Source: Hyphomicrobiales bacterium (lineage in GTDB: Bacteria > Pseudomonadota > Alphaproteobacteria > Rhizobiales > Rhizobiaceae). Taken from it: DNA of 64,000 nt. Below the pieces are notes generated by a model. The model did no database searches, had not been told where the DNA came from, and saw only the letters and a program-made list of their open reading frames with translations. The stretch spans positions 406-64,405 of the forward strand of contig UBPA01000016.1 in the NCBI GenBank assembly GCA_900467185.1, read 5' to 3'. The stretch's first letter is position 1. The number at the start of each line of letters is the position of its first letter. A program made the translations under genes and the position numbers. Shown here piece after piece: positions 14,041 to 39,725 of the stretch.

Positions 14041-14115
14041 TGGGGCGTCGCCAAGCGGTAAGGCACCGGTTTTTGGTACCGGCATTCCCAGGTTCGAATC
14101 CTGGCGCCCCAGCCA
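14041..14115 (+). tRNA. tRNA-Gln (anticodon TTG)
   Basis: A complete 75-nt cloverleaf. The acceptor stem TGGGGCG pairs with CGCCCCA, followed by G-CCA at 14112-14115. The anticodon stem is CCGGT/ACCGG and the 7-nt loop TTTTGGT places TTG at positions 34-36. The T arm has GGTTCGAATCC. A tyrosine recombinase gene begins 163 bp downstream in the same orientation, and a degenerate copy of the tRNA 3' end is found 25.6 kb away, so this tRNA is the likely integration site of a genomic island. Confidence 0.97.
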
Positions 14116-14117
14116 GC
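14096..14117 (+). other. Probable attL core in the tRNA-Gln 3' end
   Basis: The last 22 bases around the T arm and acceptor end of tRNA-Gln recur, with two mismatches and a one-base gap, at 39705-39725. Both copies begin GAATCCT and end CCCCAGCCAGC. The element keeps the tRNA intact on this side, as islands using tRNA 3' ends do. Confidence 0.6.
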
Positions 14118-14187
14118 AACTCCTTTTCAAGCCAGGAATCCATGTTTTCCGGCGCTTTCGCTTAGCTGGGAATCCAGATTCGGGCAC

Positions 14188-14235
14188 TGTCGTACAGGAT
14201 TGTCTTACAAGACTGTCGTACACAGCTGTCTTACA
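14188..14235 (+). repeat. Four 13-bp-spaced direct repeats, probable integrase arm sites
   Basis: TGTCGTACA or TGTCTTACA occurs at 14188, 14201, 14214 and 14227, exactly 13 bp apart, between the tRNA and the integrase gene. Two further copies (TGTCTTACA, TGTCTGACA), again 13 bp apart, lie at 39615 and 39628. Short repeats at both ends of an element are expected for arm-type binding sites of a tyrosine recombinase. They may also let the integrase regulate its own promoter. Confidence 0.7.
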
Positions 14236-14278
14236 GGAAGGCCACCAAATCCTGCTCACCCTTCACGAAGGGTTTAGC

Positions 14279-16294
14279 ATGGCAGCAATTCAGCACGTCT
14301 TCAAACGCGGTTCCGTCTACTGGTGGCGCCGCCGTTTACCAACTGGAACAAGCCCCTGTGCTTCTATGCGGACAGAACTGAGCCTGCACACCAAGGAGCT
14401 GAAACTGGCAAGGACGATCGCGGCCGAGGTAACGCTCGTCAGTCATCGCCTCGTGCCGGGCCTGAAGACCGAGATGATTTCTTCCGAGGACGCCAAGAAA
14501 ATCCTTGTCCAGGTTGCGATGGAGCACAGCGCGCATCTCGATTCGATCATGGCCTACAAGAACAGAGCCGAACGTGATCCGGAAGCGGGCCGGCGGGGTG
14601 AAATCTGTACCGGTTGGGCAATGAGGCTTTATGCCGCCCAAGGTGACAAAGCTGACCTCGGCCCGACGGAGGAACGCGAATTGCGTGCCACCGGTCTCGA
14701 TGAAGAGATGCTTCAGCGTGTCAGGACGACACTGAATTTCTACAAGAGCACTGGGTTTGGCCGTCCAGGCAAGGAAAAGCTTGAGGGCATCCTGGCGCAG
14801 TACGACATCTCGCCTGTGGACATCCATCTCCGCCAAGCTAAGGCGCTCTACATGCGTGGCAAGTCGGCGGCCTTGCTCAATACCGAACGTCGCTGGTCGG
14901 GGGTGCGAACGGACGATCTTGCCCTGCTGCAATCAGCCTATGCAAATGGGGGGATGTTCGACGCAGTGGCGCCGGCAGGTGCCATCATGCCCAACCAAGG
15001 TCCCCACCTACCCTTGGACACAGCGGTTCCGGTTCCACCGTTGCCGCGTCCTACCGTCGTAGAATTGCCTGCGGTTGACCCTGAGCTTGATGAAGAAGAT
15101 GAAGTTGACGATGTAGAGCCGGACAGAGATCAGCCTGGCCTCGTCGCTCTCGTTACACGGGCCTCCGAGGAGCGGGTGGCGTCAACGGAGTGGGACATCA
15201 AGACAGGCCGGCAGCACATCAAACTCGCCATGCTGTTCATCCGGTTCGTCGGTCACGACAAACCCGCTAAGATGCGGCAGGCCCATATTGCGAACTTCAA
15301 GAGCATCTTCTTCAAGATGCCCAAGAACTACGGCAAGTCACCCAAAGACTTTGTCATCAGCATCGCTGACATTTTGAAACGGGCAGAGGGTCTTCCGGCC
15401 GCAGAAAGGGGATTTTCGACCAGCACTATCAATCGGCACATGACCCAGATGGGCAACATCGTCAGCATCTGCAAACATGCCGGTTACCCCTTCGGAAATT
15501 ATGAGGGCGTGAGCGGACTTCGCTCGAAAAAGAGGGGCGACGTACGCGACGAACGGGGCAAGTTTTCAACGAGAGAACTCCAGACGATTTTTCAGCTGCC
15601 CCTCTGGAACGGTTCCGCCGGAGAAGACGATCGTTACAGCATCGGGCAGGACGTCATTCACGATGCTGCGTATTGGGTGCCTATCATTGCGGCCTACGAG
15701 GGCGCGAGGCGCGAGGAAATATGCGGCTTGCTCCTGAACGACATTGAGATCGACGCCATCGGTGATTTCGGGATTCCGTGTCTGCGCATCGAAACAAGCA
15801 CGGTTCGACGTGTGAAGAACCCTCAGTCGAAGAGACGTATTCCCCTTCACCCGGAATTGCTGCGGCTTGGTTTCGCTGACTATGTCGAGGAGCTACGTCG
15901 ACTTGGGCAAACTCTGTTGTTTCCTGAACTGCGCGCGGCCTCGCAGGACACACCCATGGGCGACGTGTTCGACGACAGCTGGCAGGCAATGCGCGCGGCA
16001 GCGCTTCCGAATGCCAAGGAGGAGCGAAAGGTCTTTCATTCCCTTCGTCACTGGTGCAACAACGAGATGAAGCAGTCCGGAGTGGCAGCCGAGGTCCGCA
16101 AGGACATATTGGGGTACACGAACGGCGATGTGAACGAGGGACGCTATGCGGAGATGGCGCGCTTGCGCCTCATGGCGGATGCCCTCAGCCACCTTCCTCA
16201 CCCCACGTCACATCTGACGCCGCATCCTGTTCGCGTGCTGGAAAGCGTAGCGGGTCACGAGGCGAGGCAGGCCAGGAAAAGCCGTCAGGCGTAA
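14279..16294 (+). CDS. Tyrosine-recombinase integrase of a genomic island
   Basis: Starts at ATG 14279 (MAAIQHVFKRGSVYWWRRRL) after AAGGG, giving 671 residues. The open frame extends far upstream through the tRNA and the opposite-strand hydrolase, but that part is not coding. The N-terminus resembles the DUF6538-type arm-binding domain found in long island integrases. A Pro/acidic linker (about residues 245-285) precedes the core-binding and catalytic domains. The catalytic set is visible: Arg in YEGARREEICGL, FHSLRHWCNNEM (HxxR), and the nucleophile Tyr in NEGRYAEM. Location beside tRNA-Gln indicates site-specific integration there. Confidence 0.93.
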   Translation: MAAIQHVFKRGSVYWWRRRLPTGTSPCASMRTELSLHTKELKLARTIAAEVTLVSHRLVPGLKTEMISSEDAKKILVQVAMEHSAHLDSIMAYKNRAERDPEAGRRGEICTGWAMRLYAAQGDKADLGPTEERELRATGLDEEMLQRVRTTLNFYKSTGFGRPGKEKLEGILAQYDISPVDIHLRQAKALYMRGKSAALLNTERRWSGVRTDDLALLQSAYANGGMFDAVAPAGAIMPNQGPHLPLDTAVPVPPLPRPTVVELPAVDPELDEEDEVDDVEPDRDQPGLVALVTRASEERVASTEWDIKTGRQHIKLAMLFIRFVGHDKPAKMRQAHIANFKSIFFKMPKNYGKSPKDFVISIADILKRAEGLPAAERGFSTSTINRHMTQMGNIVSICKHAGYPFGNYEGVSGLRSKKRGDVRDERGKFSTRELQTIFQLPLWNGSAGEDDRYSIGQDVIHDAAYWVPIIAAYEGARREEICGLLLNDIEIDAIGDFGIPCLRIETSTVRRVKNPQSKRRIPLHPELLRLGFADYVEELRRLGQTLLFPELRAASQDTPMGDVFDDSWQAMRAAALPNAKEERKVFHSLRHWCNNEMKQSGVAAEVRKDILGYTNGDVNEGRYAEMARLRLMADALSHLPHPTSHLTPHPVRVLESVAGHEARQARKSRQA

Positions 16295-16406: not shown

Positions 16407-16426
16407 TTCGATCAGAGGAGCGCATG

Positions 16427-16693
16427 ATGATCCGTTCGGCAGCAGACTTCGGCGCGTTGGTTCGCGAACACCGCAAGAAGCAGGGCTGGACTCAGACCCA
16501 GCTTGCGGAGCGCTGCGGCACGGGCGAACGCTTCATCGTCGATCTGGAGAACGGCAAGCCCAGCTGTCAGCTTGAAAAAGCGCTGATCGCCGCCCGGACT
16601 GTCGGTATCGATCTTGGTGACCTGAAAGCTGCTGCCCAGATTGCACCTGCGGCAGCCGACGACGATCTCGACTATCTGCCCCGCTTCTCCTGA
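16427..16693 (+). CDS. hipB: HipB-like antitoxin / Xre-family repressor
   Basis: An 88-residue helix-turn-helix protein. Two adjacent ATG codons exist; 16427 is preferred since GAGGAG lies 6 nt before it, against 3 nt for 16424. The Xre-type HTH is clear: FGALVREHRKKQGWTQTQLA, then ERCGTGERFIVDLENGKPS. The C-terminal tail DDDLDYLPRFS would contact the toxin. The gene is 12 bp upstream of the HipA-like kinase and downstream of a palindromic operator, so it should repress the operon and neutralise HipA. Confidence 0.88.
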   Translation: MIRSAADFGALVREHRKKQGWTQTQLAERCGTGERFIVDLENGKPSCQLEKALIAARTVGIDLGDLKAAAQIAPAAADDDLDYLPRFS

Positions 16694-16705: not shown

Positions 16706-17941
16706 ATGACCACGATCTTCTATGAAAGCATCGCCGTCGCCAATCTCATCGACCGCGATGGGATTTCTCTTCGCTATGAGCCGGGTTGGGAGCAACGCGC
16801 GTCGGCCTTTCCGGTCTCGCTGACCATGCCGCTGCGCTCAGCCATCTACGGGCCTGATCTCATCATGCCTTGGCTTGCCAATCTTCTTCCTGAGAAGCAC
16901 CTGTCCGAGATCGGGCAGCAGCTGAAAATTTCCCCGCAGGACATTGTCGGTCTGCTTCTTCGCCTCGGGCGGGACACTGCCGGAGCTTTTTCCATCGGTG
17001 AGCCGCGCCGAGACGGAAATCATTTCCGCGTCGTGCCCGACGAAGCGGCGCTCGAGCGCATTCTGAACGCGCTGCCGGAACGCCCGTTTCTGGTTGGCGA
17101 GAAAGGCGTGTCGATGTCGCTGGCGGGCGTGCAAGACAAGCTGCCTGTCTTTGTCGGTGAGGACGGCAATATCGCCATTCCCGTCGACGGCACCCCATCT
17201 ACCCATATTCTGAAGCCCGACATCAAGAGGCTGGCGGGGAGCGTCCAGAACGAAGCGTTCTGCATGACGCTCGCCAGGCTCTGCGGCCTGGACGCGGCGG
17301 AGGCGACGACCGGTCGGGCAGGAAAACGGGACTACCTCCTCGTCAAGCGCTACGACCGAATTGCAGATGGCCAGGGGACGATCCGCCGTATCCATCAGGA
17401 GGATTTCTGCCAGTTGCTCGGCCTGTTTCCGTCCGAGAAATATGAGCGCACCGGACTTGGCCAGCGGGGTGGCGCAACCCTCGCCCAGATGTTCGACGCA
17501 TTGGCGAGAACCGTCTCCCCCGCCGAACGACTGAAGCTGCTCGACGCCGTCATCTTCAACATCCTGATCTGCAACGCCGACTCCCATTCCAAGAACTACT
17601 CGGTTCTCGTCGGTGCCGCCGGGACGGCGAAACTCGCACCGCTCTACGATCTGATGTGTGCCGCGGTCTACAAGCAGGTCGACCAGTCACTTCCACAGCT
17701 GATCGGCACCAAGCGAAGCGCCAGCGAGCTTCATGAGGATGATTGGCGGCAGCTCGCCACGAGCATCGGCCTGAGCCCTGCCGTCGTCGTACGGCGTGTC
17801 CGAGCGCTCTGCGCGACCGTCGTTTCCAATCTGGATCTTGCATCGGAAGCGTCCTCCTTGCTCAAACGCGACGTCGGCGCAAACCTCAGTTTCCATATCC
17901 GTAAGAGATGCCAGCGGATCGAACGGCAGTTGGGCAGGTAG
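16706..17941 (+). CDS. hipA: HipA-like serine/threonine kinase toxin
   Basis: A 411-residue protein with the two-part HipA architecture. The N-terminal subdomain has AFPVSLTMPLRS and MPWLANLLPEK. The kinase part has SLAGVQDKLPVFV (nucleotide-binding loop region), THILKPD, the catalytic loop FNILICNADSHSKNYSVL (Asp about 291, Asn about 296) and the metal-binding LAPLYDLM. HipA kinases phosphorylate a translation factor or aminoacyl-tRNA synthetase and cause growth arrest. All key residues appear intact. Being next to the integrase, the pair could stabilise the island. Confidence 0.92.
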   Translation: MTTIFYESIAVANLIDRDGISLRYEPGWEQRASAFPVSLTMPLRSAIYGPDLIMPWLANLLPEKHLSEIGQQLKISPQDIVGLLLRLGRDTAGAFSIGEPRRDGNHFRVVPDEAALERILNALPERPFLVGEKGVSMSLAGVQDKLPVFVGEDGNIAIPVDGTPSTHILKPDIKRLAGSVQNEAFCMTLARLCGLDAAEATTGRAGKRDYLLVKRYDRIADGQGTIRRIHQEDFCQLLGLFPSEKYERTGLGQRGGATLAQMFDALARTVSPAERLKLLDAVIFNILICNADSHSKNYSVLVGAAGTAKLAPLYDLMCAAVYKQVDQSLPQLIGTKRSASELHEDDWRQLATSIGLSPAVVVRRVRALCATVVSNLDLASEASSLLKRDVGANLSFHIRKRCQRIERQLGR

Positions 17942-18474
17942 GTGGTGGGTGCCCGCGGTAAGGTCGCGTAACGGGCTGGAACGTCTACATCGGGATCGAC
18001 CGGTTTACCCTTGTCTTATCTGCTCCAGTGTCCGTCCTCTGGTCTCCGGCCTTCGGGAGGGAGATTCACGGACGAGCGGTCAACCGGCGACGTCTCCAGC
18101 CCATTGGAAACACGCCTCCGCTCAGCACGCTCCAGACGGGCTCCATGGAACCCGATCGCGGATCGAAGCGGTCAGACGAAGCTCAAGAATCTCCCGTAGG
18201 AAATGAATAGTGCTCATTATTTCCGCTTTGCATTTCCATCAGCGCCGAGTTCGCTCGTAGCGACTGTCAACATGAGATGATGAGATTTTATTGGCGTTTC
18301 AAAGGGCTGAGAAGCGGTGGCGTCCCTGAAGCGAGGAAAGCTGACGCCCAACGACGCCTCTCTTCGGGTCGCGATCGTTCTGAACAGGTTGCGGTCGTAA
18401 CGGCCTATCAACAATGATTGGATTGCTGCCGTAAAGCTGTCATGCTGGTGATATCTAAAGATACGGGAATCTCC
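17942..18474. other. 533-bp intergenic region between hipA and the LacI regulator
   Basis: No gene is supported here. A weak inverted repeat, AATGA at 18202 and TCATT at 18214, flanked by GGAA and TTCC, may be an operator or hairpin. The last 60 bp should hold the promoter of the LacI-type regulator. Short open frames in this stretch lack ribosome sites and recognisable composition. Confidence 0.45.
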
Positions 18475-19503
18475 ATGAAACGTCCTACCATCGCCGATGT
18501 CGCACAGGCGGCGGGTTTGAGTGTCGCCACCGTCGATCGGGTTTTGAACGGTCGTCTTCCTGTTCGCGAGGAGACCGCACGTAAGGTCTACGAAGCGGCA
18601 GAGAAGCTGGGCTTTCACGGCGCTAAAATTATCCGCCAGCGCATGATGGCCGATCTGCCGTCTTATCGGTTCGGCATTATTCTGCGGAAGGAGCGACAGC
18701 CATTCTATCAGGCTTTCGCCGAACAGTTGAATGCGGCGGCGGCGGCCGTGAAGGATCGCCATGTCAGCCTGACGATCACCTATGCTGTTTCGGGCGAGCC
18801 GAGCGAACTGTCGGAACTGATACACGGCATGGCCGGCAAGGTTTCGGCGATCGCTGTGACGGGGCCGGATCACTATGACGTGACGGCTGCAGTCTCGACG
18901 CTGAAGGCCAAGGGCATCCCCACGTTTGCCCTCTTGACTGATCTGGCTCAAGGCGTGCGCGAGGCCTATCTCGGGACCAATAATATGAAGGTCGGCCGAA
19001 GTGCGGCTTGGATGATATCCAAACTCTCGCCCGCACCGGGAAAGGTGGTCCTGTTTCTCGGCGGTCACCGGTTTCACGGACATTCGCTCCGTGAAATGGG
19101 TTTTCGCGCTTACATGCGCGAGTTCGCACCGCAATTTCAGGTTCTCGATTCCCATATCAATCTTGAAACCCGGCGGCTGACCTATGAACTCCTCATGGAT
19201 ACGTTGTCGCACCATCCCGATCTCGTCGGCCTCTACTGCATGGGCGGTGGCATGGAGGGGGCTATCCAGGCGCTGAAGGAGAGTGGCCGCTCGGAGGAGA
19301 TCGCCTGCCTCGTTAACGAACTGACCCCGGAGTCCCGCCAGGCGCTGCTCGAGCGCCGGATCTCGGGTGTTTTTCAGACGCCTCTTGTCGAACTTTGTAC
19401 CGACCTGATTGCAACGATGGTGCATACGATCGAGCACGGCATGGCCGAAAGCCCCGGACAGCGCTTCTTTCCGGCGCTTCTCTGGGTTCCTGAAAGTCTA
19501 TGA
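18475..19503 (+). CDS. LacI-family transcriptional regulator
   Basis: ATG 18475 gives MKRPTIADVAQAAGLSVATVDRVLNG, the classic LacI HTH at the extreme N-terminus; the in-frame ATG at 18442 would add an unlike extension. Total 342 residues. The hinge helix is followed by a periplasmic-binding-protein-like ligand domain (FGIILRKERQPFYQAFAEQL; VSAIAVTGPDHYDVT; VVLFLGGHRFHGHSLREMGF; LVGLYCMGGGMEGAIQALKE). The DRVLNG variant of the recognition helix is shared with the second LacI-type regulator at 38.4 kb. It precedes the transporter operon on the same strand and probably controls it in response to an inositol or inositol-derived ligand. Confidence 0.92.
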   Translation: MKRPTIADVAQAAGLSVATVDRVLNGRLPVREETARKVYEAAEKLGFHGAKIIRQRMMADLPSYRFGIILRKERQPFYQAFAEQLNAAAAAVKDRHVSLTITYAVSGEPSELSELIHGMAGKVSAIAVTGPDHYDVTAAVSTLKAKGIPTFALLTDLAQGVREAYLGTNNMKVGRSAAWMISKLSPAPGKVVLFLGGHRFHGHSLREMGFRAYMREFAPQFQVLDSHINLETRRLTYELLMDTLSHHPDLVGLYCMGGGMEGAIQALKESGRSEEIACLVNELTPESRQALLERRISGVFQTPLVELCTDLIATMVHTIEHGMAESPGQRFFPALLWVPESL

Positions 19504-19547: not shown

Positions 19548-19750
19548 GAAATGACGGCTAGACCCTCTCATGACGTGTTGACCCGCCGGGCCGACTGCGG
19601 AATTGTCCCCCTGCGGTGACGAGGTAGGAGCTCACCGCTTACGCAACAAGATCCTTGTTTCCCGCTGCTGGTTCGCCAGCGGCATCGGACACGCATGCCC
19701 ATAAACAGCCGCGCAACGGCGGCAACATGAATAAAGTGGAGGAGAACCCG

Positions 19751-20692
19751 ATGAAGAAATATTTGCTGGCGACAGCACTCGCAACGATGCTCGCAACAAC
19801 GGCTTCGGCCGAGACTATCGGCGTCTCGATGGCGCTTTTCGACGACAACTTCCTGACCGTTCTTCGCAACGGCATGACGGACTACTCGAAGGATCTCAAG
19901 GACGTCACGCTGCAGATCGAGGACGCGCAGAACGATGTCGGCAAGCAGCTGAGCCAGGTGCAGAATTTCGTGGCGTCCGGCGTCGATGCGATCATCGTCA
20001 ACCCGGTTGATACCGATGCGACCGTCGCGCTGTCGCAGGCTGCGGCTGCCGCCGGCATCCCGCTCGTCTATGTCAATCGCCAGCCCGTCAACGTCGATGA
20101 CCTTCCCGAAAAGCAAGCCTTCGTCGCCTCCGACGAAAAGGAATCCGGCACGCTGCAGACGAAGGAAGTCTGCCGCATGCTGAAGGCTGCCGGTAAGACC
20201 GAGGCGAAAGCCGTCGTGATGATGGGCGAACTGTCGAACCAGGCGGCGCGTATGCGCACGCAGGACATCAAGGACGTGCTTGCGACGCCGGATTGCAGCT
20301 TCATCAAGATCGCCGAGGAACAGACCGCCAACTGGTCGCGCACGCAGGGCGCCGACCTGATGACCAACTGGCTGTCGGCCGGTGTGCAGTTCGACGCCGT
20401 GATTGCCAACAACGATGAAATGGCCATCGGCGCGATCCAGTCTTTGAAGTCGTCGGGGCGCGCCATGGACGATGTCATCGTCGCCGGCATCGATGCCACC
20501 CAGGATGCCTTGGCATCGATGGCCGCTGGCGAGCTCGACGTATCGGTGTTCCAGAATGCGGCTGGCCAAGGCCGTGGTGCCGTGGATGCCGCGCTGAAGA
20601 TCGCACGTGGCGAGACGGTCGAGAAGAAGGGCTACGTTCCCTTCGAGCTCGTGACGCCTGCAAACCTCAAGGACTATCAGGCGAAGAACTAA
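19751..20692 (+). CDS. Periplasmic sugar (inositol-type) binding protein of an ABC importer
   Basis: ATG 19751 after GGAGGAG gives a 313-residue protein. It has a clear signal peptide (MKKYLLATALATMLATTASA, cleavage after Ala20) and a type-I periplasmic-binding fold: IGVSMALFDDNFLTVLRNGM, GVDAIIVNPVDTDATV, NWSRTQGADL, FDAVIANNDEMAIGA, VIVAGIDATQDAL. It belongs to the ribose/inositol (RbsB/IbpA-like) group. It heads a binding-protein/ATPase/permease operon inside an inositol locus, so an inositol or derivative is the likely ligand. A paralogue follows the permease at 23428. Confidence 0.92.
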   Translation: MKKYLLATALATMLATTASAETIGVSMALFDDNFLTVLRNGMTDYSKDLKDVTLQIEDAQNDVGKQLSQVQNFVASGVDAIIVNPVDTDATVALSQAAAAAGIPLVYVNRQPVNVDDLPEKQAFVASDEKESGTLQTKEVCRMLKAAGKTEAKAVVMMGELSNQAARMRTQDIKDVLATPDCSFIKIAEEQTANWSRTQGADLMTNWLSAGVQFDAVIANNDEMAIGAIQSLKSSGRAMDDVIVAGIDATQDALASMAAGELDVSVFQNAAGQGRGAVDAALKIARGETVEKKGYVPFELVTPANLKDYQAKN

Positions 20693-20708
20693 TCCTCTTA
20701 GCCACAAT

Positions 20709-20735
20709 GGGGCGAGGCGGCGCACGCCTCCCCCC
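20709..20735 (+). promoter_or_regulatory. Stem-loop between binding-protein and ATPase genes
   Basis: GGGGCGAGGCG and CGCCTCCCCCC can pair around a five-base loop with one mismatch. It has no T-run. Hairpins here commonly protect the abundant binding-protein transcript and reduce expression of the downstream ATPase gene. That role is inferred. Confidence 0.5.
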
Positions 20736-20758
20736 AACCCCATATGGAGGGTTTGCAC

Positions 20759-22297
20759 ATGGTCAGTCCCCGCACTGCCGAAGCGATCAAGCACGTCATC
20801 GAAGAGACTGAACGCCACGGACTTCTCGCTATCGAGGGTATCCGCAAAGAGTTTCCGGGTGTCGTCGCGCTCGACAACGTCCAGCTGCGCGTTCGCCGCG
20901 GCACCGTTCACGCCCTCATGGGAGAAAACGGGGCCGGCAAATCGACATTGATGAAAATTATCGCCGGGATCTATCAGCCGGATGCAGGCCAAATCCGCCT
21001 TCGCGGTGAGCTCGTCACGCTGAAGTCGCCGCTTGATGCGCTCGAACAGGGCATCGCGATGATCCATCAGGAGCTGGCCCTGATGAACTGGATGACGGTC
21101 GCCGAAAACATCTGGATCCGGCGCGAGCCGAAAAACCGTTTCGGTCTCATCGATCATGGCCGGATGGCCGAGATGACGGCCGAACTTTTCGACCGTCTGC
21201 GCATCAAGCTCGATCCGCGCGTGCAGGTGTTGGAGTTGACCGTCGCTCAGAAGCAGATGGTCGAGATCGCCCGCGCCGTAAGCTACGACAGCTCGATCCT
21301 CATCATGGACGAGCCGACATCCGCTTTGACGGATCGCGAGGTCGAGGGCCTTTTCTCGATCATCCGCGACCTGCGCGAACGCGGGATCGGCATCGTCTAC
21401 ATCACTCACAAGATGAACGAGCTTTTCGAGATCGCCGACGAGTTCACGGTGTTCCGCGACGGGAAATATGTCGGCTCCCATCTGTCGAAAGACGTCAATC
21501 GCGACGACATCATCCGCATGATGGTCGGGCGCGATATCACCGACATGTTTCCGAAGATCGAGTGCCCGATTGGCGAGGTCATCCTCGAGGTTCGCAATCT
21601 TACGATTCCCGGCGTCTTCCACGACATATCGTTCTCGCTCCGGCGCGGGGAAATCCTCGGGCTTGCAGGGCTTGTGGGGTCGAAACGGTCGAACGTCGCC
21701 GAAGCGATCTTCGGGGTCACGCCTGCCACATCCGGCGAGATCCTGGTCAACGGCACGGCGGTGACCATCGGGAGCCCGAGCGCTGCCATGGCGCAGGGCT
21801 TTGCCTTCCTCACCGAGGATCGTAAGGAGACGGGCTGCTTCCTGAGCCTCAATTGCCTGGAAAACATACAGTCGGCGCTCATCACACGGTCGCACGTCAA
21901 GGGCGGTTTCGTTGACCAGTCCACCGTGACCAAGCTTGCCGAGGACATGGCCCACGAGTTGAGGGTGAAAACACCGAACCTCTACGAGACTGTCGAGAAC
22001 CTCTCGGGCGGCAACCAGCAGAAGCTGCTGATCGCCCGCTGGCTCCTGACCAAGCCGCGCATTCTCATCCTCGACGAACCGACGCGCGGCATCGACGTCG
22101 GGGCCAAGTCGGAAATCCATCGGCTCATCACCGGTCTCGCGGCGGAGGGGGTCGCGGTGCTGATGATTTCGTCGGAACTGCCGGAGGTGCTGGGGATGAG
22201 CGACCGCATCGTCGTCATGCATGAAGGTCGCGTGTCCGGTGTCCTCGACCGCACCGAAGCCACTCAAGTCAAGATCATGGACCTCGCTGCGCGCTAG
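20759..22297 (+). CDS. Sugar ABC transporter ATP-binding protein (RbsA/MglA/IatA-type)
   Basis: A 512-residue tandem ATPase. ATG 20759 is chosen since GGAGGG lies 8 nt upstream; the in-frame ATG at 20744 would place that ribosome site inside the coding region. The first domain has Walker [10 protein letters not shown], a divergent signature [14 protein letters not shown] and Walker [14 protein letters not shown]. The second has a degenerate Walker A (GLVGSKRSN), signature LSGGNQQK and Walker [15 protein letters not shown]. The asymmetry is normal for this family. It energises uptake through the permease that follows; context suggests inositol-type substrates. Confidence 0.94.
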
Positions 22298-22325
22298 TCG
22301 TGCACCGCGGGAGGAGACAGCGAAC

Positions 22326-24366: not shown

Positions 24367-24394
24367 AACGATAGCGGCCCCGGAGAAGAAGCCC

Positions 24395-29119: not shown

Positions 29120-29120
29120 C

Positions 29121-31901: not shown

Positions 31902-31915
31902 GGAGGGCAAGAGCG

Positions 31916-32728
31916 ATGAGCATGCTTCGACGCCGGCCCTTTGGCGGGCACGGCAAGGTCCACGAGATCACGCCGCAATCGGCCGGCTGGCGCTATGTCG
32001 GCTTCAGCCTCTACCGCCTGCGCGCGGGCGACACGATTGGCGAGGCGGCCGGTGCGATGGAGGCCATTCTGGTGATGGTTGAGGGCAAGGCACGATTTCA
32101 GGCGGCGGGCACGGATTGGGGCGAACTCGGCGATCGCATGAACGTCTTCGAGCGCACGCCGCCGCACTGCCTCTATGTGCCGAACAATGAGACGTGGCAG
32201 GCGCAGGCGACCACGGACTGCACCATCGCCGTCTGCCTGGCTCCGGGAAAGGGCGGCCACAAGGCCCACCGCATCGGGCCGGACCGGATCACGCTCACCC
32301 CGCGTGGGGTCGGCGCAAACCAGCGCTTCATCAACAACATCGCGATGGAGGCGGACGATGACTGCGACAGCCTGCTGGTGACCGAAGTCTTCACGCCCGC
32401 CGGCAACTGGTCGTCCTATCCAAGTCATCGGCATGACGAGGACGATTTTCCGCGGATCACCTATCTGGAGGAGACCTATTACCACAGGCTCAATCCTGAC
32501 CAGGGTTTTGGCGTCCAGCGGGTCTACACGGAGGATGGCGCGCTGGACGAGACGATCGCCGTGACGTCGCACGATGTCGTCCTCGTGCCGCGCGGCCATC
32601 ATCCCTGCGGCGCGCCCTATGGCTTCGAAATGTACTATCTCAACGTCATGGCAGGTCCGTTGCGGAACTGGCGTTTCGTGCCTGACCCGGCCGTCCAGTG
32701 GATTATCGATCGCGACACCAAGGCGTAA
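31916..32728 (+). CDS. iolB: 5-deoxy-glucuronate isomerase
   Basis: ATG 31916 after AGGAGGGCAAGAGCG gives MSMLRRRPFGGHGKVHEIT and 270 residues. The tandem-cupin IolB signature is present: YPSHRHDEDDFPRITYLEE with HxH and Glu ligands, then DVVLVPRGHHPCGAPYGFEM. It converts 5-deoxy-D-glucuronate to 5-dehydro-2-deoxygluconate, the IolC substrate. The gene follows iolE by 14 bp. The reading extends upstream inside iolE but without a better ribosome site. Confidence 0.95.
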   Translation: MSMLRRRPFGGHGKVHEITPQSAGWRYVGFSLYRLRAGDTIGEAAGAMEAILVMVEGKARFQAAGTDWGELGDRMNVFERTPPHCLYVPNNETWQAQATTDCTIAVCLAPGKGGHKAHRIGPDRITLTPRGVGANQRFINNIAMEADDDCDSLLVTEVFTPAGNWSSYPSHRHDEDDFPRITYLEETYYHRLNPDQGFGVQRVYTEDGALDETIAVTSHDVVLVPRGHHPCGAPYGFEMYYLNVMAGPLRNWRFVPDPAVQWIIDRDTKA

Positions 32729-32749: not shown

Positions 32750-33139
32750 ATGCCGCTGATCAAGCTGCACATTCGCAAGGGCCGGTTGGAGGCCGACATC
32801 ACACGGCTTCTCGACACGGTGCATGCGGTCATGCTGGGCGCCTTTCATGTGCCGGAGCGGGATCGCTACCAGATCGTGTTCGAACACGAAGACACGCATT
32901 TTCGCGCGCTGGACACAGGCCTCGGCTTCACGCGGACGGATCGTTTCGTCCTGATCGAAGTCGTCTCGCGGCCGAGGCCGAGATCCGAAAAGCTCGCATT
33001 CTACCAGGGCCTTGGTGGTCAGTTGTCTGAAAGGTGCGGCATTCCGGCATCCGATCTCATGGTGTCTTTCGTTGAGAACAGTGACGAGGATTGGTCGTTC
33101 GGCGCGGGTGTCGCTCAATTCGTGACGGGTGATCTATGA
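32750..33139 (+). CDS. Tautomerase-superfamily protein
   Basis: 129 residues beginning MPLIKLHIRKG, so Pro1 would be exposed after methionine removal, the catalytic residue of 4-oxalocrotonate tautomerase/MIF-like enzymes. Two repeats of the beta-alpha-beta unit can be made out (PLIKLHIRKGRLEADITRLL and DRFVLIEVVSRPRPRSEKLA). The 129-residue form matches the tautomerase subfamily with two fused units. In this operon it may interconvert enol and keto forms of an inositol intermediate. It overlaps the downstream regulator gene by 4 bp (ATGA). Confidence 0.8.
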   Translation: MPLIKLHIRKGRLEADITRLLDTVHAVMLGAFHVPERDRYQIVFEHEDTHFRALDTGLGFTRTDRFVLIEVVSRPRPRSEKLAFYQGLGGQLSERCGIPASDLMVSFVENSDEDWSFGAGVAQFVTGDL

Positions 33140-34041
33140 CTGGTTGCCTGGACCCCGTCCCGCGAGGTCGTCGGGCGTCTGCCTCCGCACGTTCGTTTCG
33201 GACATCTCTATTGGGTGACGGGGACCACCGTCCGCCGGATCTCGATACGCTGAAAGCCGTGATGCTGGCGCGGCACGCAGACTTTCCCAAGCGGATCGCA
33301 ACGATCGCGCACTTTGCCCTTGACCATCCTGATGACATCGCGTTCGGCACCGTCGCATCGATTGCAAAAGCTGCGCAGGTTTCGCCGTCGGCGCTCGTCC
33401 GCTTTGGGCAGTTCTTCGGATATAGCGGGTTCAGCGATCTTCAGTCGGTGTTCCAGCAGGCGGGACGCACGAGAATTGTTGCCAAAGCCGCATCTGATGT
33501 CGCATTGAAGGTTGGCCCCGCCTGCGGCCACTGGAATGCCATTCACGAGACGGTCGAGACTGGCCGCATGTCGATCGACGTGATGTGTGAGACCATCCCG
33601 CTTGCCGATATGAGGGCTGCGTCGGACATGCTGTCGATGGCGGATAGCATCTTCATTCTCGCAGGCAAAGACGCTCTGCCGTTCGCGAGCTTCTTCCACC
33701 TGCGTCTTGTCGAGATGAGCATCCGAGCGATTCTGCTGACCGACATGGCCTCCGCAACCGATATCCTCGCTCTTGCAAGACGCGGAGATGCGGCCGTCGT
33801 CCTGGAGACGGCCCCGGTCAGCAGCGCGCTCGCCGCTCATGTCGTGACCATCAAAGAGCTGCAGATGCCGATTGTCTGCATGACCGACATGCCGTTATCG
33901 TCCACGGCAGCACTCGCCAGCGTTCGTTTCGATCTCGCCGGTGCCGGCAGAGACGCCTTGTCACGCGTGACTGCAGGCATCGTACTCGGCAACGCCCTGG
34001 CGAACGGCATTCGTGCGTCGTTGCAGACGACCAGCGGGTGA
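33136..34041 (+). CDS. RpiR/MurR-family transcriptional regulator
   Basis: 301 residues starting at ATG 33136, overlapping the tautomerase stop. After a basic tail of about 30 residues comes the HTH_6 domain (FGTVASIAKAAQVSPSALVR, FGQFFGYSGFSDLQ). A SIS sugar-phosphate-binding domain follows (MADSIFILAGKDALPFASFF; LLTDMASATDILALARRGD). Rhizobial IolR repressors belong to this family and respond to inositol intermediates, so autoregulation of the iol operon is likely. Translational coupling to catabolic genes is unusual for a repressor and ties its dose to operon expression. Confidence 0.88.
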   Translation: MTGCLDPVPRGRRASASARSFRTSLLGDGDHRPPDLDTLKAVMLARHADFPKRIATIAHFALDHPDDIAFGTVASIAKAAQVSPSALVRFGQFFGYSGFSDLQSVFQQAGRTRIVAKAASDVALKVGPACGHWNAIHETVETGRMSIDVMCETIPLADMRAASDMLSMADSIFILAGKDALPFASFFHLRLVEMSIRAILLTDMASATDILALARRGDAAVVLETAPVSSALAAHVVTIKELQMPIVCMTDMPLSSTAALASVRFDLAGAGRDALSRVTAGIVLGNALANGIRASLQTTSG

Positions 34042-34048: not shown

Positions 34049-35095
34049 CTATTCCACCAGCCCTGCCTTCGTGAAGTCGATACCAAGCGCCTGCCGTATG
34101 CCGTCGAGCAGCCGCATGGTGGCAAGCGATGCCTCGGCCGGTCGGCACGCGGTCTCCAATTTTCCTTCCGCAAGAGCCCAGGCGATCTCTGCGGCCTCAT
34201 GGAAAAGCCCCTCGAAATGCGCGCCTCTCGGCTCTTCGTAGCGGAGGCGGCGGGTGCCATCGAGGGACCAGACCTCGAAGCTGCCCGGCAGGTGAAACTC
34301 CGTCTCGAACCGGATCGTGCCTCTGCTGCCTATGGTCGCCGCGTTCGTCGGGCTGAAACCGTAAGGCGAGGTCGACATGGTGCCGAGAGCGCCGCGCGTA
34401 TTGGAGACGACGACGGAGAGTTGTCCGTTGACACCGGTCGGGTCTGGCGTGGCGAGGCCGACGATGCGCTCGGGCGTGCCCAGAAGCTTGGCGAGAAGCG
34501 AGACGGGATATGTCCCGAGATCGAGAAGGGGCCCGCCTGCAAGCGTCGCGTCGAAGATCCGATGCTCGCGCGGCAGGTACTCGCCATAGTCCGTGTAGAC
34601 GGACAGGATGTCGCCGATGACGCCGGCATCGAGCACTTGGCTGATCACGTCGAATTTCGGGAGGAAGTAGGTCCAGAGAGCCTCGGCGAAGAACACACCC
34701 TTCTCCCGCGCGGCCGCCACCATGTCCGCTGCCTGTGCGTGATTGAGAGCCACCGGCTTCTCGACGAGGACATGCTTTCCTGCCGCAATCGCCAACATCG
34801 CGTGCTCATGGTGCAGGTTGTGGGGTGTCGCGACATAAATGATGTCGATATCGTCGGCAGCAACGAGCGCTTCATAACTGCCGTAAGCGCGAGGAACCTG
34901 CCAGGTCGCCGCAAACCTTTCGGCGGCTTCAGGCGATCGGGAGCCGACCGCCGCGATCGTCTGGCGCGTATGTGCCTGAACCGACTCCACGAACTTTGCG
35001 GCGATCCATCCCGAGCCGAGAATACCCCAGCGAAGCGGGGGTGCCTCCATCGGCGGCCGGGTCCGGGGCAGGGGCAGTGTTTCTGGGAAAGACAT
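34049..35095 (-). CDS. Gfo/Idh/MocA-family oxidoreductase
   Basis: 348 residues. After a Pro-rich leader the Rossmann motif LRWGILGSGWIAAKFVESV appears, then HVLVEKPVALNHAQ and the C-terminal alpha/beta domain with VFFAEALWTYFLPKF and GGPLLDLGTYPVSLLAKLLG. These resemble the dihydrodiol-dehydrogenase-like branch rather than classical IolG. It is the last gene of the minus-strand operon and ends 7 bp from the convergent RpiR gene. Probably an NAD(P)-dependent dehydrogenase of a cyclitol or sugar; substrate unknown. Confidence 0.85.
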   Translation of the reverse strand: MSFPETLPLPRTRPPMEAPPLRWGILGSGWIAAKFVESVQAHTRQTIAAVGSRSPEAAERFAATWQVPRAYGSYEALVAADDIDIIYVATPHNLHHEHAMLAIAAGKHVLVEKPVALNHAQAADMVAAAREKGVFFAEALWTYFLPKFDVISQVLDAGVIGDILSVYTDYGEYLPREHRIFDATLAGGPLLDLGTYPVSLLAKLLGTPERIVGLATPDPTGVNGQLSVVVSNTRGALGTMSTSPYGFSPTNAATIGSRGTIRFETEFHLPGSFEVWSLDGTRRLRYEEPRGAHFEGLFHEAAEIAWALAEGKLETACRPAEASLATMRLLDGIRQALGIDFTKAGLVE

Positions 35096-35124: not shown

Positions 35125-36297
35125 TCAGCCGGCGGTCTTCTGCCAGGACCCGGTCACGACGGAGCGTTCCATCGCGTCGATGATGCGTTCGTTGGCAAGC
35201 CCGAATTCGAAGTTCGGAAAACAGTCCGCGTCGTTGCAGATGCCCTCGATGAGATCGCGGACCTCGATGACCTTGACGTCGAAGTAGCCGAGACCGCCGC
35301 CTGCAAAATCGAACCCGAAGAAGGCGCCGAACTGCGGCACCTGGCTTCCGGCAAGGATGGTCTTGAAACCGCGGTCCGGTTTCGGATCGGTGAAGCGCGA
35401 AATCTTCAGCTCGTTGAAGCGCTCGCCATCCATGATGATCGTGCCCTCGGTGCCGGAAACCTCCCAGTAGATGCCGAAGACCTTGCCGGCAGCGACGCGC
35501 GATGCCTCGATCGTACCGCCCGCACCATTGCTGAAGCGGATCAGCGTCTGGATCTGGTCTTCATTCTCCACAGTCGCGCGGGGCGCATCCGTGTCCGACG
35601 TCGCTCCATAGCCGGAGCCGCTTTGCGGCACGGGCCGCGTTGGAAAGAAAGTCTGCGTCTGCGCGATGACCTGGTCGATATCGCCGACCAGATATTGCGC
35701 CACCGAGATTACATGGCTTCCCAGATCCCCAAGCGCTCCCGAGCCCGCATCCTTGCGTGTGCACCGCCAGGAAAATGGCAGGTCCGGATCGTTGAAGAAG
35801 CCTTGATCGAACCATCCGCGAAACCGCATCAGCGTGCCGATATCGCCGCGGTCGATCATGATTTTGGCGAGCATAGCGGCAGGGGTCTTGATGTTGTTGA
35901 AAGCGACCATGGTCTTCACGCCCTGCCTCCGTGCCGCGTCCGCCATCTCTTCGGCCTGCGCCAGCGTCACAGAGAGCGGTTTTTCGCAATAGACATGCTT
36001 GCCCGCGGCAATGGCGGCGAGCGCCATCTCGTGGTGCATCGCGTTGGGCGAAGTGATGTCGACCACGTCGATGTCGGGATCGGTCACGAGCCTCCGCCAA
36101 TCGCCGGTGCTCCGCTCAAACCCGAAACGGTTGGCGGCATCGGCCGCAAGCTCGCTCGTGACATCGGCGAGCATGCTCAGATGCGGAACCGCCGGCAGAT
36201 CCCGGTACAGCATGGCTGCGCGACGATAGGCGTCGGCATGAGCCTGACCCATGAAGCCGGAGCCGATCAGACCGATATTCAGCGTCTTTTTTGGCAT
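35125..36297 (-). CDS. Gfo/Idh/MocA-family oxidoreductase (390 aa)
   Basis: ATG 36297 is preferred: TTGAGGACA lies about 9 nt upstream and the product begins MPKKTLNIGLIGSGFMGQAH. An in-frame ATG at 36321 overlaps the neighbour's stop but lacks a ribosome site. The NAD motif is GLIGSGFMGQAHADAYRRA, followed by HVYCEKPLSVTLAQAEE and the active-site region GSGALGDLGSHVISVAQYLV. Its length and C-terminal extension place it near myo-/scyllo-inositol or sugar dehydrogenases of catabolic islands. Exact substrate cannot be read from sequence. Confidence 0.86.
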   Translation of the reverse strand: MPKKTLNIGLIGSGFMGQAHADAYRRAAMLYRDLPAVPHLSMLADVTSELAADAANRFGFERSTGDWRRLVTDPDIDVVDITSPNAMHHEMALAAIAAGKHVYCEKPLSVTLAQAEEMADAARRQGVKTMVAFNNIKTPAAMLAKIMIDRGDIGTLMRFRGWFDQGFFNDPDLPFSWRCTRKDAGSGALGDLGSHVISVAQYLVGDIDQVIAQTQTFFPTRPVPQSGSGYGATSDTDAPRATVENEDQIQTLIRFSNGAGGTIEASRVAAGKVFGIYWEVSGTEGTIIMDGERFNELKISRFTDPKPDRGFKTILAGSQVPQFGAFFGFDFAGGGLGYFDVKVIEVRDLIEGICNDADCFPNFEFGLANERIIDAMERSVVTGSWQKTAG

Positions 36298-36320
36298 CGT
36301 CGTTGTCCTCAAGCGGGCCA

Positions 36321-37235
36321 TCAGGCCGAAAATTGCGCAAGGATATGGTGAAAGGCCGAAGTGACGGCCGGCAGGGGCGGCACGATCGCCGGATCCTGCT
36401 CCGCCTCGACCACAAGCCATCCGCGATAGCCGCTCTCCCGGACGAAGCGCGCCAGGGGCATAAAATCGAGACTGCCATCGCCCGGCACCGTGAACATGCC
36501 GCTCCGCACGCCGTCATTAAAGCTCAGGTCACGGGCACGAACCCGGTCAAGAATCGGCGCGCGGACATCCTTCAGGTGAATATGGACAATGCGGTCGCCG
36601 AAGCGTTCGATCATCTGGGTGTAGGCAAAGCCCGCAGCCGCCGCGTGACCTGTGTCCAGGAGAAGCCCGACCGACGGCCCTGCCGCGTCGAAGATCATCG
36701 AAATCTCATCGAACGTTTCAGCGACCATCATGAGATGATGGTGGTAGGCGAGCGTCAGGCCGTACGCATCGGCGAGCTTGGTGCCGAAATCGGTCAATCG
36801 GGACGAATAGGCCGCGACATCCGCTCTCGCGAGATGCCGCCTCCGGGACATCGGCACATCGAGAGGCGCACCGGGCGTCATCATGGCCGTTTCGCCATAG
36901 ACCATGACGGTCGATCCCATGGAACGCAACAGATCCGCATGTGCAGCCACCGCGGTTAGTTCGTCTTCTACGCTGCCTTCGGCGAGTTGACCGGAATGCC
37001 AGCCGGAGGCGAGAGCGAGCCCGCGACTGCCGAGCAAGGGGGTGAGCGCCTGTCTTGTGCGCGGCAGCTTGCGGCCAAGCTCGACCCCTTCGTAGCCGGC
37101 ACGGGCGGCGTCATCGAGACATGTCTCGACCGGGATATCCGCGCCAAGGTCCTCCAGGACATCGTTCGCCCAGGACAAAGGGCTCACGGCGAGGCGGATT
37201 CCGGACGGAAGCGCTGAAAGGTTTTCAGATCTCAT
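36321..37235 (-). CDS. IolE-like inosose dehydratase paralogue / TIM-barrel enzyme
   Basis: 304 residues from the second of two adjacent ATGs, which has GGAG at 6 nt. It shares with IolE at 30984 the metal-site and core segments: LAYHHHLMMVAETFDEIS, LLLDTGHAAAAGF, IVHIHLKDVRAPI, LSFNDGVRSGMFTVPGDG and LVVEAEQDPAIVP. It is clearly a second member of the inosose-dehydratase group, diverged in the substrate region. It could act on another keto-inositol isomer (for example from D-chiro- or scyllo-inositol). It sits between two dehydrogenase genes. Confidence 0.85.
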   Translation of the reverse strand: MRSENLSALPSGIRLAVSPLSWANDVLEDLGADIPVETCLDDAARAGYEGVELGRKLPRTRQALTPLLGSRGLALASGWHSGQLAEGSVEDELTAVAAHADLLRSMGSTVMVYGETAMMTPGAPLDVPMSRRRHLARADVAAYSSRLTDFGTKLADAYGLTLAYHHHLMMVAETFDEISMIFDAAGPSVGLLLDTGHAAAAGFAYTQMIERFGDRIVHIHLKDVRAPILDRVRARDLSFNDGVRSGMFTVPGDGSLDFMPLARFVRESGYRGWLVVEAEQDPAIVPPLPAVTSAFHHILAQFSA

Positions 37236-37287
37236 CATGATCTCCGGTAGGAAGGACTGTGTCAGGGTTGCCACGCGGTGTCGCCGT

Positions 37288-38295
37288 TCAGGGCCTCCAG
37301 TCGGGGCCAATCCGGACGGGCAGGCCTGTGGCGACGGACTTCACCGCTGCTTCCGCGATCCGTTGCGCTTCCAGACCGTCGCGGATCGTCGCCAGCGGTT
37401 TTGTGCCGGTCCGGATCAGGTCGATGAACGCGGACATCTCGGCGCGATAAGCCGTCGAGAAGCGCTCGATGAAATAGTTCATCGGCGGGGAGGCCCTGAA
37501 TCCATCGGCATCGGCGATGAGGACCCCGCGCTGCGGGCGGTTCTCGACATAGAGCACTTCATGGGCACAGAGCGCTTCGAGGCGCTGGTCGTAACCAAAG
37601 GGTGCACGGCGGCAGTCGATCATCTGGACGAAGCGCCCGGATGCGGATGTTAGCGTGACCATGGCCGTATCGATATCGCCGGCTGCGCCGATCTCGGGGT
37701 CGATGAGGCAATTCCCCACGGCGTAGACCGTCACGATCTCCTCACCCAGCAGGTAGCGCGCCATGTCGAAGTCATGGATCGCCTGATCCCTGAACATGCC
37801 GCCGGAACGCTCGACATAGGCGCGGGGCGGCGGCGCGGGATCGCGCGTGTGCATGACGATATGTTCCAGCGGTCCCGCAGTGCCATCCGAAATCCGGTCT
37901 CTCACGAAGCGGAAATCCGGATCGTAGCGGCGCTGGAAGGCCAGCAGGCACGGCACAGCTGAACGCTCCACCGCATCCGTGACCGTCTCGACCGTCGCGA
38001 AATCGAGGCTCACAGGCTTTTCGCAGAAGATGGCCTTGCCGACACGCGCGGCCTCGATCAGCAGAGCGGCATGCGTGTCCGTCGAACTCGCGATGATGAC
38101 ACCATCAATCGACGGATCGGCGAAGACCTGCGCAGCCTCGACGATATCGGCGCCGACTTTCGCCGCAAGCTCCGATCGGGCCTCACTCTCGATGGGATCG
38201 ACAAGATAGCGCACCCGCACCGAGGGCAGGCTTGCGGCGTTCGTCGCATGCACATGCCCGATGCGCCCTGCACCGAAGACGGCGAGATGTATCAT
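37288..38295 (-). CDS. Second inositol 2-dehydrogenase-like enzyme (Gfo/Idh/MocA)
   Basis: 335 residues starting MIHLAVFGAGRIGHVHATNA, with the NAD motif and IFCEKPVSLDFATVE. The active-site block SGGMFRDQAIHDFDMARYLL carries the Asp/His pattern of IolG, and QRRYDPDFRFVRDRI is also IolG-like. It is the first gene of the minus-strand operon and faces a divergent LacI-type gene only 90 bp away. It probably oxidises an inositol isomer distinct from the substrate of the first IolG. Confidence 0.86.
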   Translation of the reverse strand: MIHLAVFGAGRIGHVHATNAASLPSVRVRYLVDPIESEARSELAAKVGADIVEAAQVFADPSIDGVIIASSTDTHAALLIEAARVGKAIFCEKPVSLDFATVETVTDAVERSAVPCLLAFQRRYDPDFRFVRDRISDGTAGPLEHIVMHTRDPAPPPRAYVERSGGMFRDQAIHDFDMARYLLGEEIVTVYAVGNCLIDPEIGAAGDIDTAMVTLTSASGRFVQMIDCRRAPFGYDQRLEALCAHEVLYVENRPQRGVLIADADGFRASPPMNYFIERFSTAYRAEMSAFIDLIRTGTKPLATIRDGLEAQRIAEAAVKSVATGLPVRIGPDWRP

Positions 38296-38385
38296 GACGA
38301 TCCTCCCGATCCACGCGAGACGTTCTCGGCCTCGTTCGTTGTCGTCACTCTAGCGTGGTGCTAATGAGGGGATACGTCGATCTTG

Positions 38386-39426
38386 ATGAGATCTCCTCAA
38401 ACGGGGTGTGCCGTGGGCAAGCTGACATCGCGAGATCTTGCCATCGCAGCCGGGGTATCGCTGGCCACGGTCGATCGTGTCCTCAACGGGCGTGGTGGCG
38501 TGAGCCCGGACAAGGAGCGGCGTGTTCTTGAACAGGCGAGACGGCTGAAGATCAACCGTGTGATCGACCCACGCGCTGCGCGGACGCTGCGTGTCGCCGT
38601 TCTCCTTCAGTCGCGCGCAAATCCGTTCCATGCGGCCGTGCAGGATGGTTTCGAGGGAGCGACGCGGCTCTATCCTCAGTATAACCTGCAGTTTCAGGTT
38701 CATCACATCGACCCGGTTCGACCCGCCGCCACCGTCGCGCTCATTCGCGCCTTGGCCGGACATTGCGATGCGCTGATCATCGTGAGTTCACAGAATGAGG
38801 ATGTCGCCAGCGCCCTTCGAGCCTGGGGCGGGCAGGGGAAACCCGTCATGACGCTTGCCACTGACATTCGCAACGCGGACCGCATCGCGTATATCGGCCC
38901 CGACAACCGGAAAGCAGGACGGGTCGCCGGAGACTTGATGGCACGCCTCATGGGCAGGGAAGGCGGCGAAATCGTCATCATATCCGGCATGTTGAGCATG
39001 ATCGGTCATGAGGAGCGCGAGATGGGCTTTCGCGCCGTGTTGCGCGAACGCTATCCGCACTGCCGGGTGACGGACGTTTTGGAGAGTCTGGAGCGTGCCG
39101 AAACGGCAGGCGATCTCGTCTTCGACGCCCTGCGCAGAAATCCTCAGATTCGCGGCATCTACAACGCTTCCGCCGGTGCTCAGACGGTTGTGACGGCGCT
39201 CAAGACACTCGGACTCGCCGACGAGGTGGTATTTATCACGCACGAATTGACCGACGACCGTCGCCAGCTCATTCGCCAAGGCCTGATCGATGTCATCATC
39301 GACCAGCGACCCGAACTCGAAGTGCAAACCGCCGTTCAGGCACTAGCGTCCTATTTCGGCAGGAACGATCATCCCCCCGTATCCCTCGTGACGCCGATAG
39401 ACATCTACATGATCGAAAATGCTTGA
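38386..39426 (+). CDS. LacI-family regulator divergent from the second inositol operon
   Basis: About 346 residues from ATG 38386; a GTG at 38413 is a credible shorter start placing the HTH closer to the N-terminus. The HTH reads LTSRDLAIAAGVSLATVD with RVLNGRGG, and the ligand domain shows LRVAVLLQSRANPFHAAVQD, GHCDALIIVSSQNEDVA, AYIGPDNRKAGRVAGDLMAR and EVVFITHELTDDRRQLI. It is paralogous to the LacI-type protein at 18475. The 90-bp intergenic region shared with the dehydrogenase gene should hold the operator. Ligand is probably an inositol derivative. Confidence 0.9.
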   Translation: MRSPQTGCAVGKLTSRDLAIAAGVSLATVDRVLNGRGGVSPDKERRVLEQARRLKINRVIDPRAARTLRVAVLLQSRANPFHAAVQDGFEGATRLYPQYNLQFQVHHIDPVRPAATVALIRALAGHCDALIIVSSQNEDVASALRAWGGQGKPVMTLATDIRNADRIAYIGPDNRKAGRVAGDLMARLMGREGGEIVIISGMLSMIGHEEREMGFRAVLRERYPHCRVTDVLESLERAETAGDLVFDALRRNPQIRGIYNASAGAQTVVTALKTLGLADEVVFITHELTDDRRQLIRQGLIDVIIDQRPELEVQTAVQALASYFGRNDHPPVSLVTPIDIYMIENA

Positions 39427-39614
39427 GGCGAAGGCAAGACCGTCAAAGGTGCGTGCCGGGTCCCGGCAACTGACGAGTGCTGTAGAAGAGCATGGCGGCT
39501 ATATCGAGGGCGTCGCGCGATTGTCGACAACCTAAGCGGAATTATTTCCCGACGCGGAACCAATGGAGACGTGCCGTTCAAGAGGCTGTTGATAATCAAA
39601 CCTACCCTCCGGAC

Positions 39615-39636
39615 TGTCTTACAAGACTGTCTGACA
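39615..39636 (+). repeat. Two 13-bp-spaced arm-type repeats at the island right end
   Basis: TGTCTTACA at 39615-39623 and TGTCTGACA at 39628-39636 have the same sequence and period as the four repeats at 14188-14235. They lie about 80 bp inside the degenerate tRNA copy, roughly the same distance as on the left. Confidence 0.65.
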
Positions 39637-39704
39637 CGAATTTCAGGTGATCAGGGTTTATTAACCTTCTCAAAGGCTTGAAAAGAGGCCGGTTCCCCGG
39701 CTGG

Positions 39705-39725
39705 GAATCCTAGCCCCCAGCCAGC
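39705..39725 (+). other. Probable degenerate attR
   Basis: This 21-bp segment begins GAATCCTAG and ends CCCCCAGCCAGC. It matches the 3' end of tRNA-Gln (14096-14117) apart from two substitutions and one missing base. The imperfect match would be explained by decay after integration or by an island att that was never identical. Confidence 0.5.

Follow-up and report, generated by a model that had tools for sequence, protein, structure and literature searches.

Rhizobial integrative and conjugative elements (ICEs) at tRNA genes, for example ICEMlSymR7A, encode a tyrosine recombinase, use the tRNA 3' end as target and carry metabolic cargo. Genomic islands for inositol use have also been described, namely the myo-inositol island GEI4417/4436 of Salmonella (PMC10783015) and a 17.5-kb iol island in epidemic strains of Aeromonas hydrophila (PMC3835674). 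The accessible sections of the Aeromonas report describe an island that resembles the one presented here as laterally acquired inositol catabolism of low G+C content, absent from reference isolates, and that differs from it in being flanked by a transposase (PMC3835674). The present locus lies in a 64,000-nucleotide stretch, hereafter the window, of a Hyphomicrobiales genome of the family Rhizobiaceae (assembly GCA_900467185.1, contig UBPA01000016.1; genome G000). The host of this 25.6-kb island is a plant-associated rhizobial relative. Positions 14116 to 39723 of the window are very probably a tRNA-Gln-specific integrative genomic island, whose recombinase family has exchangeable cargo and which here carries HipBA and a second inositol (iol) block. 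The observations behind this reading are the anatomy of the island, the homology between its ends and those of sister islands, the empty site of a congener, and a phylogenetic conflict between the cargo and the core genes. The coordinates of all features are given in Table 1.

The window contains a single tRNA gene, an intact tRNA-Gln(TTG). Its 3' end forms the core of the left attachment (att) site, and in the congener with an empty site this core adjoins the right flank. A degenerate copy of the tRNA 3' end had been proposed at the right end in a preliminary description of the sequence. This copy (attR) scores 40 with the att consensus of sibling islands when one gap is allowed; 60 Markov sequences averaged 25.3 and reached 36 at most. 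The boundary is placed at 39723, and not at 39725 as first described, because the att core shared with the siblings ends at CCA. Repeats with 13-bp spacing inside both ends were also part of that description and were recovered. Four exact pairs occur in the window and none in 200 Markov sequences. The core-like repeat TTAGCTGGGAATCC is located approximately 47 bp inside the left end and is found at about the same distance in nine other aligned left ends, with small changes in some. The recombinase would recognise the arm repeats inside both ends, and crossover in the tRNA 3' end would keep the tRNA whole on the left while duplicating its 3' end on the right.

The 11-mer common to both ends does not by itself exceed the chance level, being found at three places with up to one mismatch where 2.4 are expected. 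Such a word is not rare, which is what a chance origin would predict, with the repeat at 39.7 kb being no att site and the inositol genes ordinary chromosome. This is extremely improbable, as it is contradicted by the empty site, the homologous sibling ends and the arm repeats at both ends.

The survey of the integrase covered 394 genomes, evenly drawn from a larger group, of a family taken to be Rhizobiaceae. Seven of these, G000 included, have a match at E <= 1e-100. A tRNA-Gln adjoins the integrase in all six of the others, with anticodon TTG in four and CTG in two. Among the weaker matches, tRNA-Gln lies within the stretch at 11 of the 16 loci examined (out of 30); the first eleven of these 16 have 26-36% identity. 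A complete right att copy is present in five of the six close relatives (G350, G357, G361, G414, and G198), 13-39 kb away, and matches at 18-20 of 21 bases, compared with 13-17 in shuffles. The sixth, G052, retains the right-end arms and the element-side motif, after which the core is broken or lost. In alignment, the right ends of G350 and G357 are close to that of the G000 island, those of G361 and G414 less so, and that of G198 is divergent. An inverted repeat, CTTTTCAAGCC at the left and GGCTTGAAAAG at the right, would flank the core in the circular form only. Its length is reached in 0 of 1000 shuffles for G000, G357, and G361 and in 9 of 1000 for G198. The letters of the repeat in G361 and G198 differ from those in G000.

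The contents of the sister islands were compared using 26 window proteins as queries, with matches defined by more than 30% identity over more than 40% of the length. Within the bounded sister islands, only the integrase and hipB (G361 and G414) are matched. The hipB homologues are 82% identical in G052 and G414 and 68% in G361; the G052 stretch contains hipBA, with a hipA homologue at 78%. No inositol genes are present within the sister islands, and the inositol-like matches of G357 fall outside its island, past the right end. PADLOC was applied to 38 sister-island proteins (12 of 34 open reading frames, or ORFs, in G350, 11 of 28 in G357, 4 of 31 in G361, 6 of 22 in G414, and 5 of 11 in G198). 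The G357 island encodes ZorA, ZorB, ZorC, and ZorD, which is a complete Zorya set, and a type III methyltransferase. The G414 island encodes MzaB, MzaC, and MzaE with a methyltransferase and a dGTPase. One protein of the G350 island gives a match to a portion of a type I restriction enzyme. The recombinase family appears specialised on tRNA-Gln, with cargo that would be exchangeable and that includes anti-phage systems in some islands. The PADLOC matches of the window HipB and HipA are weak.

All five scanned sister islands encode a large AAA ATPase, for which tblastn detected no homologue in the window. An IetAS system was considered and not accepted, as the IetA models match the ATPase domain only. 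Many large genes among the scanned sister-island proteins have no PADLOC match.

The genus was sampled with seven genomes (G000 to G006), of which G001 is Ferranicluibacter rubi. According to the preliminary description, an empty site would show tRNA-Gln intact and continuous with the DNA that lies to the right of the island elsewhere. G001 has this arrangement: an intact tRNA-Gln is followed by CCCCAGCCA and then by DNA whose homologue flanks the island on the right in G005 and, with lower similarity, in G000. The tRNA-Gln site is occupied by an island with the inositol block in four of the seven genomes (G000, G002, G003, and G005). In G005, the integrase is in fragments (tail), hip fragments remain, and the right end is kept. 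In G002, the integrase is in fragments and left-end DNA is kept. In G003, which has no integrase, the left end and the beginning of the block are present before the contig breaks off. At the G004 site, left arms and integrase ends remain as a scar. G006 has tRNA-Gln without the island and also without the right flank seen here. Inositol genes in place with the integrase absent had been put forward as evidence against an island, and this is literally the arrangement in G002, G003, and G005. These are read here as decayed copies, because left-end DNA (G002 and G003) or the integrase tail, hip fragments and right end (G005) are kept. As a separate observation, a distant integrase relative (26%) adjoins tRNA-Gln(CTG), the other glutamine tRNA, in G004, G003, and G001.

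A core tree built on codon-based data from the left-flank genes and rpoB groups G001 with G005 (98%) and these two with G002 (100%), while the G000 node has 61%. The simplest account is one insertion followed by loss in G001; the loss is likely because G001 nests among occupied congeners. The alternative is that G001 never held the island, which would then have entered every occupied lineage separately. Insertion at tRNA-Gln by this integrase family in many genera and the conflict between the block and core trees both fit independent gain. The same inositol block at the same site in four of seven congeners, the left arms and integrase ends of the G004 scar, and the occupied state of G005, the sister of G001, do not, and we regard independent gain as rather unlikely.

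Besides this alternative, a number of observations weigh against a tRNA-Gln island in the form proposed. The right att copy was not found by ungapped searches with the tRNA end; attR is altered by one substitution and one deletion, and three more bases differ ahead of the aligned part. In G350 (267 of 1000 shuffles) and G414 (276 of 1000), the inverted repeat does not exceed chance. The G+C fraction is 0.616 in the island, 0.680 to its left, 0.625 from 39.7 to 46.9 kb, and 0.668 beyond 46.9 kb; low G+C therefore runs to approximately 47 kb, and composition does not place the right boundary. The PF00589 match of the integrase (E of 3e-5) is under the cut-off (24.3 against 27.1 bits), and its residue at the H/W position of the catalytic motif is Tyr613, where all four aligned siblings (the set without G052 and G198) have His. 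No excised circle or transfer was seen. The inositol block also occurs away from tRNA-Gln in three congeners (G001, G004, and G006). A boundary further to the right, as the low G+C might suggest, is ruled out by the sibling right ends and the empty site, which give 39723. The claim that the block forms one integrative unit is upheld by the shared sister ends and the empty site, and is qualified by the inositol genes found elsewhere in the genus.

The tyrosine recombinase stands beside tRNA-Gln as first described, with its ORF beginning 163 bp 3' of the tRNA, and matches the PHROG_1 'integrase' family with an E value of 1.4e-16. Tyrosine recombinases have the catalytic motif R-K-HxxR-H/W-Y. The positions matching it are R477, K513 or K518, H587-x-x-R590, and Y623. 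No conjugation, relaxase or excisionase genes were detected by Pfam among the 22 of 22 island genes (14.1-39.7 kb), with very small ORFs not searched throughout. Judged from the sequences compared, the island is probably old in the genus and decaying, and is now either fixed or moving rarely, since the integrase has decayed in occupied relatives, the island was lost in one, and attR and a catalytic position are altered. A still mobile island, whose excised circle spreads by the transfer machinery of another element, is improbable. It would fit the full-length open frame of the integrase, the arms and core kept at both ends, and the clean empty site in a congener. The absence of the above gene classes by Pfam, Tyr613 in place of His, the mutated attR, and an integrase that is in fragments or absent in the three other occupied congeners argue against it.

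On other contigs, the block has 93% DNA identity in G001 and G004 and is present as pieces of 71-79% in G006. The block edges in G001 and G004 are similar despite different surroundings. The 4-kb right flanks of the block, which were used for the flank search in other genomes, differ between the two, and that of G004 is like a RepC-bearing contig of G002. The G004 block starts 514 bp from the contig end. There is no support for this integrase having moved the block in G001 and G004, as no tRNA, arm pair or att motif was found in 70 kb of contig C40 of G001 (tRNA scan from 10 kb on) or 40 kb of contig C25 of G004.

The block tree, from which six G003 block genes were left out, groups G004 with G005 (100%), with other nodes at 65-84%. 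In topology tests, the block and core data each reject the tree of the other (approximately unbiased test, p of 0.00014 and 8e-50). At fourfold sites, block and left-flank divergences are 0.129 and 0.122 for G001-G005, 0.207 and 0.194 for G001-G002, and 0.204 and 0.179 for G002-G005. The block divergence of G004-G005 (0.105) is lower than that of the left flank (0.278) and rpoB (0.163). The G000-G004 values are 0.157 for the block, 0.285 for the left flank, and 0.145 for rpoB. In G006, the block (0.53-0.55) exceeds the left flank (0.40-0.45), and the G006 block may itself be foreign. Block divergence is not uniformly lower than that of the flank, so the claim of transfer rests on the topology conflict. 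The presence of the block at other sites in three congeners and the conflict between its tree and the core genes indicate that it has moved among congeners independently of the tRNA-Gln site, not necessarily by this integrase.

The order of events is weighed separately. An older tRNA-Gln island with the integrase and HipBA, perhaps with other cargo, could have captured the block second, through recombination, with a plasmid or a different place in the chromosome as the source. This order has about an even chance and is compatible with the tRNA-Gln island proposed above. It agrees with sister islands that lack inositol genes while three have hipB or hipBA, with the similar block edges in G001 and G004, with the conflict between the trees, and with the common occurrence of iol genes on rhizobial plasmids. 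Counting against it, the block edges yielded neither a donor junction nor a repeat. Some part of the block is matched by 243 plasmid records, none of which has more than 80% of the block in one place. More broadly, the Rhizobiaceae tRNA-Gln integrase family may form a swap platform with conserved ends and wholly exchangeable contents, complete anti-phage systems among them. The 21-kb inositol cassette would move between this platform, plasmid-like DNA and other sites, and the platform would have been cleanly lost in F. rubi with the cassette surviving elsewhere. This wider scheme is tentative and is held at somewhat less than even chances.

The inositol block is 21 kb in length (18.4-39.43 kb of the window), with edges taken from the congener comparison. 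IolD, two IolE, IolB, the IolC-aldolase fusion and one IolG score over curated cut-offs. In total, the block encodes two LacI-family regulators and one RpiR-family regulator, four Gfo/Idh/MocA dehydrogenases, an ABC importer with two binding proteins, two IolE, two further isomerase-like proteins and one tautomerase-like protein. The dehydrogenase at 25300-26310 matches solved inositol dehydrogenases (6e-123). HipBA and the inositol genes are present as first reported, and the locus is not complete as claimed, since it is without iolA: no aldehyde dehydrogenase is found among the 22 genes of the island. The block is also a second iol locus, as another is present in all seven genomes of the genus, with an IolD 58-59% identical to that of the block. 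In G000, this other IolD lies within an iolC-to-iolB region on another contig. The block would thus be a second, divergent iol set feeding inositol isomers into the standard pathway, with the last step (IolA) presumably encoded elsewhere. A duplication is suggested by a 189-bp stretch that is 71% identical between the two substrate-binding-protein genes (19909-20097 and 23604-23792).

To the right of the island, low-G+C genes at 39768-44400 include an NTP transferase and a HAD hydrolase. The genes of this 39.8-44.4 kb stretch have a 79%-identical copy on a RepC-bearing contig in G003, and the protein at 41517-43010 has no match in G004 or G006. The stretch is probably a second, separate piece of accessory DNA. 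Repetitive extragenic palindromic (REP)-like sequences occur at seven places in the window and none between 955 and 45395, in agreement with the reported lack of palindromic core repeats within the island. They are dispersed outside it at 855-955, 45395-45511, 46148-46232, 49413-49503, and 63708-63806.

Table 1. Features of the tRNA-Gln island and its boundaries (window coordinates).
Feature	Position	Strand	Evidence or remark
tRNA-Gln(TTG)	14041-14115	+	ARAGORN, Rfam; 3' end 14096-14115 is left att core
Inverted-repeat left arm CTTTTCAAGCC	14123-14133	+	Partner 39675-39685
Core-like repeat TTAGCTGGGAATCC inside left end	14162-14175	+	Equals element-side motif of attR
Four arm-type repeats, 13-bp spacing	14184-14236	+	Same place in siblings
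Tyrosine recombinase, 671 aa, DUF6538 N-terminal domain	14279-16294	+	PHROG_1, Pfam
HipB-like antitoxin	16424-16693	+	Pfam HTH_3; TIGR03070 just below cut-off
HipA-family kinase toxin	16706-17941	+	Pfam HipA_C, Couple_hipA
LacI-family regulator, left edge of inositol block	18418-19503	+	
Sugar ATP-binding cassette (ABC) importer and isomerase-like protein	19655-25297	+	
Importer binding proteins	19655-20692, 23428-24366	+	
Importer ATPase	20744-22297	+	
Importer permease	22221-23345	+	
Sugar-isomerase-like protein	24239-25297	+	
IolG-type inositol/D-chiro-inositol dehydrogenase	25300-26310	+	NF052679, 516 bits, just below cut-off 540
Sugar-isomerase-like TIM-barrel protein	26319-27104	+	Pfam AP_endonuc_2; no NCBIfam match
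IolC fused to DUF2090 aldolase domain	27119-29119	+	NF047869 over cut-off
IolD (ORF as listed; family match from residue 67)	28938-30956	+	TIGR04377 over cut-off
IolE	30984-31901	+	TIGR04379 over cut-off
IolB (ORF as listed)	31766-32728	+	TIGR04378 over cut-off
Tautomerase-like protein	32750-33139	+	Pfam Tautomerase_2
RpiR-family regulator	33136-34041	+	Pfam HTH_6, SIS
Gfo/Idh/MocA dehydrogenase	34049-35095	-	
Gfo/Idh/MocA dehydrogenase	35125-36420	-	Resembles scyllo-inositol/levoglucosan dehydrogenases
Second IolE	36321-37310	-	
Gfo/Idh/MocA dehydrogenase, IolG	37288-38295	-	
Second LacI-family regulator, right edge of inositol block	38383-39426	+	
Two right-end arm-type repeats	39611-39637	+	Align with sibling right ends
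Inverted-repeat right arm GGCTTGAAAAG	39675-39685	+	Partner 14123-14133
Degenerate right att site (attR), right island boundary	39700-39723	+	Gapped consensus search, sibling alignment

The tRNA-Gln integration system is defined here by an integrase, arms, a core and a natural empty site, and is open to bench testing. A metabolic trait is carried here by a recombinase family that can bring phage defence in its other islands, and the sister islands and the empty site make this a clean case. Inositol use, a trait that matters in the rhizosphere, can be acquired in the form of a second, portable locus. A search of open-licence PubMed Central (PMC) text returned no description of an inositol island at tRNA-Gln in Rhizobiaceae. 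The Salmonella island GEI4417/4436 belongs to a different taxon with a different gene set, and the accessible part of its report describes no tRNA-Gln integrase (PMC10783015). By comparison, the block described here includes several dehydrogenases and an ABC importer and is the second iol locus of its genome. Unlike rhizobial ICEs such as ICEMlSymR7A, the present island has no conjugation or relaxase genes by Pfam. The sister islands (G350, G357, G361, G414, and G198, with G052) share its integrase family, target and related ends; they differ from it in having no inositol genes and in carrying Zorya (G357), Mza (G414) or a restriction-enzyme-like protein (G350). Inositol islands as such are already known, and what is less expected is that defence and catabolic cargo are exchanged on one tRNA-Gln recombinase platform.

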